This document shows positions 3,058-6,468 of a stretch of 64,000 nucleotides of DNA, piece by piece. How positions within the stretch are numbered: position 1 is the stretch's first letter; each line of letters opens with the position of its first letter. The position numbers and the translations under genes were made by a program. The DNA comes from Acidobacteriota bacterium (lineage in GTDB: Bacteria > Acidobacteriota > UBA6911). The notes under the pieces were generated by a model. It was not told the DNA's origin, searched no databases, and was given only the letters and a program-made list of their open reading frames with translations. Location of the stretch: assembly GCA_012719355.1 (NCBI GenBank), contig JAAYAM010000100.1:1-64000 (forward strand), read 5' to 3'.

Positions 3058-3711
3058 TTGTTAATGGAGACTGGAAACGTGATTGTCAGGCAAATGGAAG
3101 TTGGAAATTTCAACATATTCAGTTACCTGGTGGCCGACGAGCGGTTCAGGGAAGGGTTGTTCATAGATCCGGCGGCTGAACCTGACCTTCTTCTGAAAGA
3201 AGCGGCCGATCATGAGCTGTCGATAAAATATATCGTGAACACTCATTCCCATATTGATCATGTGATGGGTAATAGTGAGATGGTGCGGAGGACCGGAGCG
3301 AAAATTGTCATTCACGAAGCCGACGCGCCGGGTCTTCTCGACACTCCCAGGAACCTGCTGGAAATGTTCGGAGCGGTGCCTTCGCCCATGGCGGACATTC
3401 TGGTGTCCGACGGTCAGGAAATACGGGTTGGAGATGTCTCGCTGCGTGTGATCCATACGCCGGGCCACACTCCGGGAGGCATGTGTCTTTATCTTGAAGG
3501 AATGGTCTTTACCGGAGACACGCTCTTTGTCGGCTCAATTGGAAGGACTGATTTCCCGGGTTGCTCGTACGAGGATCTGGAACGATCGATAAGGACGAGA
3601 CTCTATACGCTTCCCGGAGAGACTATCGTGTATCCGGGACATAATTACGGGTCGTCTCCGTCATCCACCATTCAGCAGGAGCGCCGCACCAACGCTTTCA
3701 TCCGCGATTAG
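3058..3711 (+). CDS. MBL-fold metallo-hydrolase (glyoxalase II-like)
   Basis: THSHIDHVMGN, HTPGHTPGG, FTGDTLF, PGHNYG motifs. Confidence 0.85.
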   Translation: MLMETGNVIVRQMEVGNFNIFSYLVADERFREGLFIDPAAEPDLLLKEAADHELSIKYIVNTHSHIDHVMGNSEMVRRTGAKIVIHEADAPGLLDTPRNLLEMFGAVPSPMADILVSDGQEIRVGDVSLRVIHTPGHTPGGMCLYLEGMVFTGDTLFVGSIGRTDFPGCSYEDLERSIRTRLYTLPGETIVYPGHNYGSSPSSTIQQERRTNAFIRD

Positions 3712-3713
3712 CG

Positions 3714-4370
3714 CTAACCGGAGCCGGTCTTCTCCACGGCTTCCAGTATCGTGCTTAACAGCATAGACTCGGGCCCGGATCCTTCGATCACATACTCCTC
3801 GTTGATGACGGTTTTCGGCACGCCGCGAACGGAGTATTTCTGTGCGAGGTGAGGGAATTCCGATATCTCGACGGCATCGGCGGTGATGAGAGAGTTTTCC
3901 ATGGCAGCCTGGTGAGCCAGCCGCACCGCAGCCGGGCAGTACGGTCAGGTAGGAGTCGTGAACACCTGCAGGTGTACAGGAACCTTGATATCCTGCAAGG
4001 CCTTCCTGGTTTCATCCGAAAGGCCGGACTCATTCCTCGACACCATCAAAATCGCGTCGAGGAGGGAAGAGAATTCGTAGCCTGCCGGTATACCGTAAAA
4101 CCGTATCCCGGAGGCACCGCCGTTCGAGACCACGGTTGCCGGGATTTTGTCGATCCTGTAGCTCCTGACCTGTTCCTGGTCGGTCTTGAAGTCGTAAACC
4201 TCAATTCTGATTTTTTCCTCAATTGACGAGAGCTCCTCAAGCAGCTCCCGCGTTTCACGGCAGAAATCACATTCAACATCCTGGGTGAAATAGCTGAGGG
4301 TCACGTCGGAACGCATGTCCCTGAGCCGCTCCTTCACGGCAGGTCTATCAGCATCTTTGATGAAGCTCAT
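3714..4370 (-). CDS. Candidate selenoprotein: protein disulfide oxidoreductase (PDO/glutaredoxin-like), UGA at codon 142 read as Sec in a U-P-Y-C active site
   Basis: ORFs 3945..4370 and 3714..3926 are in the same frame, separated by one TGA plus codons P-Y-C-P-A-A. The N-terminal Trx domain carries CDFC; the C-terminal domain reads VHLQVFTTPT(TGA)PYCPAAVRLAHQAA, where PDO homologues have TPTCPYCP. Confidence 0.8.
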
Positions 4371-4461
4371 GATGTCTCTCCCGGGGGGAAGAGTTCAGTT
4401 GTCCCGCTACCTTTCGATCAATTCTACTCTGAGGATCCCCCGGTTTGAAGATCCGCGACCG

Positions 4462-6468
4462 TCAGCTCTGATAGAGACGACGCATCAGCTCCGCGAATTG
4501 TGGGAAGTGCAGCGCCTGTGGACCGTCGCTCAATGCTTCTTCCGGTTCAGGATGGATTTCGATGATGAGGCCATGCGGACCGACCGCATGCGCCGCCAGC
4601 GCCAACGGCACCACCAGCTCTCTCCGGCCTGCGGCATGTGATGGATCGACCACTATTGGAAGATGCGTCAAACTTCTGAGGATCGGGATGGATCCAAGGT
4701 CGAGCGTGTTGCGGGTTGCAGTCTCGAAGGTTCTGATGCCGCGCTCGCAAAGGATGACCTGGTGATTGCCATGCGCGAGAATGTACTCGGCAGCGTTCAG
4801 GAATTCCTCCATTGTCGACATCATGCCGCGCTTCAGGAGAATCGGGCGATTCGAACGTCCGGCTTCGTTCAGAAGGCTGAAATTTTGCATATTGCGCGCC
4901 CCGATCTGTAGGACGTCGGCATAGCGTGACACGGGTTCCACATCCGCTGGAGACAGGACTTCAGTGACTATGGGCAGGTCATATTCTCTCCCGGCTTCGG
5001 CCAGCATTTCCAGGCCTTCAAATCCCAGGCCCTGGAAGCTGTAGGGAGATGTCCTGGGTTTGAAGCAGCCTCCACGCAACAACTGACCACCGTGTTCCCG
5101 CACGTACCTTGCGCATTTGTGGATCTGTTCCCGCGACTCGACCGCGCAGGGACCGGCGATGACGACAAATCCTGGACCGCCTATCCTGACTCCTCGTACC
5201 GAGATGATCGTATCATCAGCCCTGTGCATGCGGCTCGCCAGCCTGTAGCTCACCTTCTCCTTCTTCTTCTCGCCGGGTTCGGATGTGGCCGGATCACTCT
5301 CCGGCATTCCACCTGCGAGGATCTCGACTTTGGGTGCAGTCCTGGCGCGGTGCTGCATCGGGTAGCATCCCAGGACTTTCAGTGATGTGGTTGCGGACCT
5401 CAGCTTTTCGAGCGCCTCTGATACCGTCGGATCCGCGATGTTCCCCTCGAAATCAAGGTAGAAGAGGTACTGAAACGGCATGCCGGGAATGGGCCGGCTT
5501 TCGAGCTTCGACAGGTTTATCCTGTACTGGTGCAGGAGGGCCAGCGCTTTGAGCAGGGAGCCTTCCTCGTGAGGTGTGGCCATTATCAGCGAAGTCTTGC
5601 ACGGAATGCGAAGGTCGATAGTCGCCGGTTTCTTTGCAAGAACGAGAAAGCGCGTGAAGTTGTTCTGCTGATCCTCTATGTTCCGCCGCAGTACCTTCAA
5701 ACCATACAGCCTGCCGGCGTCTTCCCCGGCTATTGCCGCTGTGGACGGGTCTCCTTCATCCCGGACCTTCTTGACCGCCATCGCCGAATCGGGGCAGGTA
5801 AGGGTCTGGCAGTTCGGAAGCTTCGAGACGAATTTCATGCACTCGGTCAGCGCCTGCGGGTGGGCGCAGATCCGACGAATACTGCTTATCGGTATATCGT
5901 CGAGTGCGAGAAGACTCAGCTCGATCCGCAGCACTTCCTCTCCCACGATGGACAGCTGTGCACAGGAGAGAAGATCGTAGACCTCGTTGATGCTGCCGGC
6001 AGTGGTATTCTCGACCGGGAGGATGCCATAGTCCGCTTCTTCATTTTCAACTGCATCAACAATCCCCTCCATCGTGTCGGATCCGACGAACACCGTCTGA
6101 TCTATGAAAGGAGCAAAAAACTTCTGTCCGGCCAACTGGCTGTAAGCCCCTTCAATGCCCAGAAAAACCACACGCTTGATGCCGGATTTGTCGTAGTCGA
6201 GAAGGTGGAGTTGCTGAGACCGGATCGAGTCGTCGATGATTTCATGAAAAACCCTTGTGACCAGGTGCGCGTCCAGTCCGACGCCACGCCCCATCGAAAT
6301 GAGGTGCTCCAGCACCTGCTCCTCCCTGAGTTCATCGCGGAGCGGGGTCCCAAGCTCGGACTTGGTTCTGATTATCTGCTCTGCAAGTTTACGCCTGGCG
6401 GCGAGAGCCTCGATAATTCGCTGGTCCACCGAGTTGATTTCATCCCTGATCTTCTCCAGGTCTTCCAT
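4462..6468 (-). CDS. pheA: Chorismate mutase / prephenate dehydratase / ACT / DAHP synthase fusion
   Basis: N-terminal AroQ CM ([28 protein letters not shown]), then PDT ([14 protein letters not shown]...[15 protein letters not shown]), ACT ([20 protein letters not shown]), and C-terminal DAHPS ([37 protein letters not shown]). Confidence 0.92.

Follow-up and report, generated by a model that had tools for sequence, protein, structure and literature searches.

A single reading frame interrupted by TGA

The window analysed in this study (the whole stretch of 64,000 nucleotides) corresponds to C11:1-64000 of an assembly that comprises 4.57 Mb in 377 contigs, with completeness rated at 100% and contamination at 4.2%. 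Window positions 3714-4370 (minus strand) carry two ORFs, 3945..4370 and 3714..3926, which the original prediction had assigned to the same frame. They indeed form a single 218-codon frame, and its sole interruption is a TGA at codon 142 (TGA = 3947..3945) in the context TTC ACG ACT CCT ACC TGA CCG TAC TGC CCG. Ordinary gene calling would split it into a 141-residue protein cut short at the TGA and an orphan product of 70 residues; reading through the TGA rescues this mis-split gene. The features of the locus are as follows.

3714..4370, minus strand: predicted selenocysteine (Sec)-containing protein disulfide oxidoreductase (PDO) gene with two thioredoxin folds, encoding 218 residues before the stop codon (from the sequence and from profile and structure-sequence matches)
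Within 3714..4370, minus strand: N-terminal site C34-D-F-C37 and predicted C-terminal site U142-P-Y-C145 (from the read-through translation)
3945..3947, minus strand: in-frame TGA, codon 142, predicted to be read as Sec (among distinct homologues, 95 have TGC/TGT here and 41 have TGA)
3917..3935, minus strand: bSECIS-like hairpin CCGGCUGC-GGU-GCGGCUGG, with an 8-bp stem and a loop spanning +18..+20 past the UGA (from folding energy and comparison with Sec homologues)
4376..4382, minus strand: probable ribosome-binding site GGGAGAG before the ATG (from the sequence)

The read-through protein matched the NCBIfam model TIGR02187 (protein disulfide oxidoreductase) over residues 6-211 with 273 bits against a cut-off of 185 (1e-81), and its residues 1-212 were aligned with the solved PDO 1a8l (1.7e-49). 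Matches to the thioredoxin and glutaredoxin equivalog models were far under the cut-offs. Each fold has a CxxC-type site if Sec is allowed, namely C34DFC37 and U142PYC145. The TGA lies at the position of the first Cys of CPYC in 1a8l and aligns with the first Cys of TCPYCP, which agrees with the earlier proposal that UGA replaces the catalytic N-terminal Cys of CPYC in a PDO-family protein.

The Cys-containing PDOs of hyperthermophiles (1a8l and 2ywm) share the two-fold architecture with the window protein, and the alignment extends over the full length. However, the window protein has a predicted Sec in place of the first Cys of the C-terminal CPYC, and its N-terminal site is CDFC, whereas that of the hyperthermophile PDOs is CQYC. 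Sec-containing thioredoxin and glutaredoxin resemble it in having a thioredoxin-fold UxxC site whose N-terminal residue is Sec (PMC13188914); unlike the window PDO with its two folds, they are single-domain proteins.

Alternation of Cys and TGA codons among homologues

Codon 142 was read in 142 homologous loci, of which 136 were distinct; TGA was present in 42 loci (41 distinct). Across the 136 distinct homologues, the codon was TGC or TGT in 95 and TGA in 41, and no other codon was found, so that the Cys/UGA alternation suggested as a check by the original prediction is evident. In all 42 TGA loci, this TGA was the only stop inside the gene, and the remaining stops in the alignments were gene ends. 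Since every homologous codon at this position is TGC, TGT, or TGA and there is no other internal stop, the TGA at codon 142 is not due to chance. The TGA forms were derived from the window's phylum, Chloroflexota, Ignavibacteriota, Bacillota, TA06, and Acidobacteriota, and those other than the window gene were 33-55% identical to the window sequence.

Residues downstream of the TGA were at least as conserved as those upstream (mean identity, 53% after vs 45% before), and the coding pattern, measured as GC by codon position, persisted past the TGA. The earlier argument that a conserved downstream half speaks against decay is thus borne out. SelA over the cut-off was found in the genomes of 11 of the 11 TGA loci with named records, compared to 9 of the 27 sampled Cys loci. 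The TGA form therefore goes with selA (Fisher p 0.0002, a value that serves only as a guide because related genomes are not independent).

Selenocysteine machinery in the genome

SelA (555 bits by TIGR00474), SelB, and SelD, the latter two each over the cut-off, and a tRNA-Sec with anticodon TCA were found in the genome; selA, selB, selC (tRNA-Sec), and selD, which had been named as genes to look for, are thus all present. An in-frame UGA at a redox Cys, other UGA-bearing homologues, and a genome with selA, selB, selC, and selD are among the features expected of a bacterial selenoprotein, and all of these are present here. SelD of this genome has an in-frame TGA of its own, located at the active site (..LSSASGUASKMSP..; L018, contig C126, 1468-2505, plus strand). 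A second match of the tRNA-Sec model, on contig C150, was a tRNA-Ser. Formate dehydrogenase was sought in the genome as a further selenoprotein and gave no match over the cut-off. SelA was over the cut-off in eight of the nine congeners, as well as in the majority of the other near relatives searched, so that the Sec trait is native to the lineage.

A conserved SECIS-like hairpin after the UGA

After the UGA, we searched for hairpins whose first two loop positions include a G, with synonymous-codon shuffles of this gene as the background for comparison. The hairpin of the window had a folding energy of -11.7 kcal/mol, and 2.5% of the synonymous shuffles were as good (p 0.025). Taken alone, for one gene, this hairpin is only modestly unusual. 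The constraints described for bSECIS elements are a loop of 3-9 nt with G in the first two positions, a stem of 4-16 bp, a distance of 16-37 nt from the UGA, and an energy of at most -7.5 kcal/mol (PMC13188914). The window hairpin conforms to them, with a 3-nt loop (GGU), 8 bp, 17 nt between the UGA and the loop, and the above folding energy.

The best such helix in the 41 Sec forms had a mean energy of -8.9 kcal/mol and a median p of 0.065, and its loop started at +18 in 29 of them. In contrast, the 95 Cys forms showed a mean of -3.5 kcal/mol, a median p of 0.42, and scattered loop starts. When the 5′ arm was fixed at +10..+17 and any loop length from 3 to 6 nt was allowed for Sec and Cys forms alike, the four inner pairs formed in 39-41 of 41 Sec rows vs 59-64 of 95 Cys rows; these figures are contrasts and not exact probabilities, since the choice of loop length leans to pairing in both groups alike and the rows are related. 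The inner pairs are retained in the Sec homologues and not in the Cys homologues, and pairs 3-5 occur as GC, CG, AT, and GU versions, which amounts to compensatory change.

When the 45-70 nt downstream of the UGA were folded freely, a different helix had the lowest energy. It begins right at the UGA and is unexceptional, and so it was comparison that revealed the conserved hairpin. The stretch from the UGA onward that forms this other helix should be within the ribosome during UGA decoding. Of the bSECIS-like hairpin originally predicted downstream, the presence of a conserved SECIS-like hairpin holds, but the loops then sketched, CGGCTGGCT or CTCA, are not those best supported. The CTCA-loop hairpin was formed only when the first 9-12 nt were omitted, and it has no G in the first two loop positions; it was not adopted. 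Scanning the locus against Rfam returned no relevant match.

Decoding of the UGA codon

The apparent stop almost certainly encodes Sec, the 21st amino acid, at the active site, an assignment nearly as secure as sequence evidence alone allows. This assignment is drawn from the one frame that is open except for the TGA and its full-length TIGR02187 match, the exclusive TGC/TGT/TGA alternation among homologues from many phyla, the four Sec genes in a genome whose SelD has its own in-frame TGA, and the tie between the TGA form and selA. It is also indicated by the bSECIS-compliant hairpin with compensatory changes in Sec forms only, by the conservation and coding GC pattern that continue after the TGA, and by the place of TIGR02187 among catalogued selenoprotein families. 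We hold it to be highly probable that the gene encodes a PDO with a U142-P-Y-C145 C-terminal site and that its UGA is decoded as Sec via SelB and the stem-loop. SelB would act on the stem-loop starting ten nucleotides past the UGA and deliver Sec-tRNA(Sec) to the ribosome, and the UGA would thereby be decoded as Sec instead of a stop. The predicted product would be a two-thioredoxin-fold PDO with U142-P-Y-C145 in place of C-P-Y-C at the C-terminal active site. In cytoplasmic thiol-disulfide exchange, the presumed setting, the selenolate may serve as the attacking nucleophile of UxxC and be resolved by C145; exchange with the N-terminal CDFC site, the likely relay partner, and an electron partner are presumed.

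Three other explanations were weighed against Sec decoding. If the gene were decaying and the TGA a genuine stop, the cell would make the N-terminal fold alone or no useful product, and the absence of the gene from the congeners searched fits this explanation in that the gene may be a recent, dispensable arrival. Decay is nevertheless very unlikely, considering that there is no further stop or frameshift, that the part after the TGA is conserved like the part before it, and that 40 other distinct homologues have TGA at exactly codon 142 and nowhere else. A sequencing or assembly error would need a change of just one base if the real codon were TGC or TGT. However, the same base is present in 40 other distinct loci from independent assemblies, where it is tied to the presence of selA, and the SECIS-like hairpin is in place; an error is even less probable than decay. 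Within a non-exhaustive search for suppressor tRNAs, nothing specific favours the reading of the UGA as another residue through a suppressor tRNA or a changed code, and against it stand the complete Sec pathway, the other recoded TGA examined, which is the classic Sec site of SelD, and the association of the TGA state with selA across genomes. We give this explanation as little credence as a sequencing error.

Relation to known selenoproteins and occurrence in the phylum

The UxxC form of TIGR02187 figures in lists of predicted selenoprotein families under the name "homolog of AhpF N-terminal domain (Grx-like domain protein)", with ABB15282.1 as an example (PMC9312934, PMC13188914), and two such proteins, from Carboxydothermus hydrogenoformans and Symbiobacterium, were counted in 2006 (PMC1794560). 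The TIGR02187 model of NCBI bears the name PDO_seleno_TRX. The selenoprotein family has thus been catalogued since about 2005-2006, and the window gene is one more member. The original prediction regarded Sec in a PDO with two thioredoxin domains as unusual, and this view is not sustained; since UxxC in TIGR02187 was already catalogued, the Sec-PDO is a true yet ordinary finding for its kind. The window protein resembles the catalogued Sec proteins in family (over the cut-off) and in the UxxC motif, and it comes from another lineage than the catalogued example.

In the window's phylum, which is probably Acidobacteriota to judge from named relatives, 396 genomes were sampled. A close match was present in 71, and in 29 of these 71 the gene had a TGA, which was located at codon 142 wherever it was read. 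Only small points are new: the absence of the gene from the nine congeners searched, the empty site in the nearest of them, and the commonness of Sec forms in the phylum. What is added here is the support for Sec, the corrected hairpin, and the count of 29 TGA-bearing genomes among the 71. A well-supported Sec site joins a family with few literature-listed examples. With its many Sec and Cys forms, some of them in close relatives, the family is well suited as a natural series for studying the benefit of Sec in a disulfide oxidoreductase with two folds.

Genomic neighbourhood and origin

The pdo gene is adjoined by a gene for a fused chorismate mutase, prephenate dehydratase, and DAHP synthase of 668 residues (window 4462-6468, minus strand), which is found at full length in six congeners with 72-79% identity. 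Because this adjacent gene is so similar to its counterparts, the contig belongs to the present genus, and contamination was ruled out. On the other side lies a gene for a hydrolase of the metallo-beta-lactamase fold (window 3058-3711, plus strand), which resembles glyoxalase II according to matches that fall short of the cut-offs. It is convergent with pdo and ends two bases from the pdo end. The hydrolase gene also has the fused aromatic gene as its neighbour in a congener that lacks pdo.

The PDO gene was absent from all nine congeners searched. In G008, the nearest of them as judged by the neighbouring gene (79% identity), the metallo-hydrolase gene is separated by 71 bases from the gene for the chorismate mutase-prephenate dehydratase-DAHP synthase fusion, with nothing between the two, and pdo fills that place in the window. 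This absence and the empty site would mean a gain by transfer into the present species or a loss in the others.

A quick tree grouped the window sequence with Sec and Cys forms of an Ignavibacterium and of other families of its phylum (89% SH-aLRT). At least 10 Sec/Cys changes were needed overall; the starred branches force only 2. We lean, without strong conviction, towards the following joint picture: Sec-PDO is common and not rare in the window's phylum, Cys and Sec have been switched several times even between near neighbours, the SECIS hairpin is anchored at +18 with a loop of 3 to 6 nt, and the present species acquired pdo recently, at the place where its nearest relative has an empty site. 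In one genus, the closely related PDO genes L150 and L146 have TGA and TGC, respectively, at the same codon. This pair looks like a recent Sec/Cys switch and could serve for comparing Sec and Cys forms.
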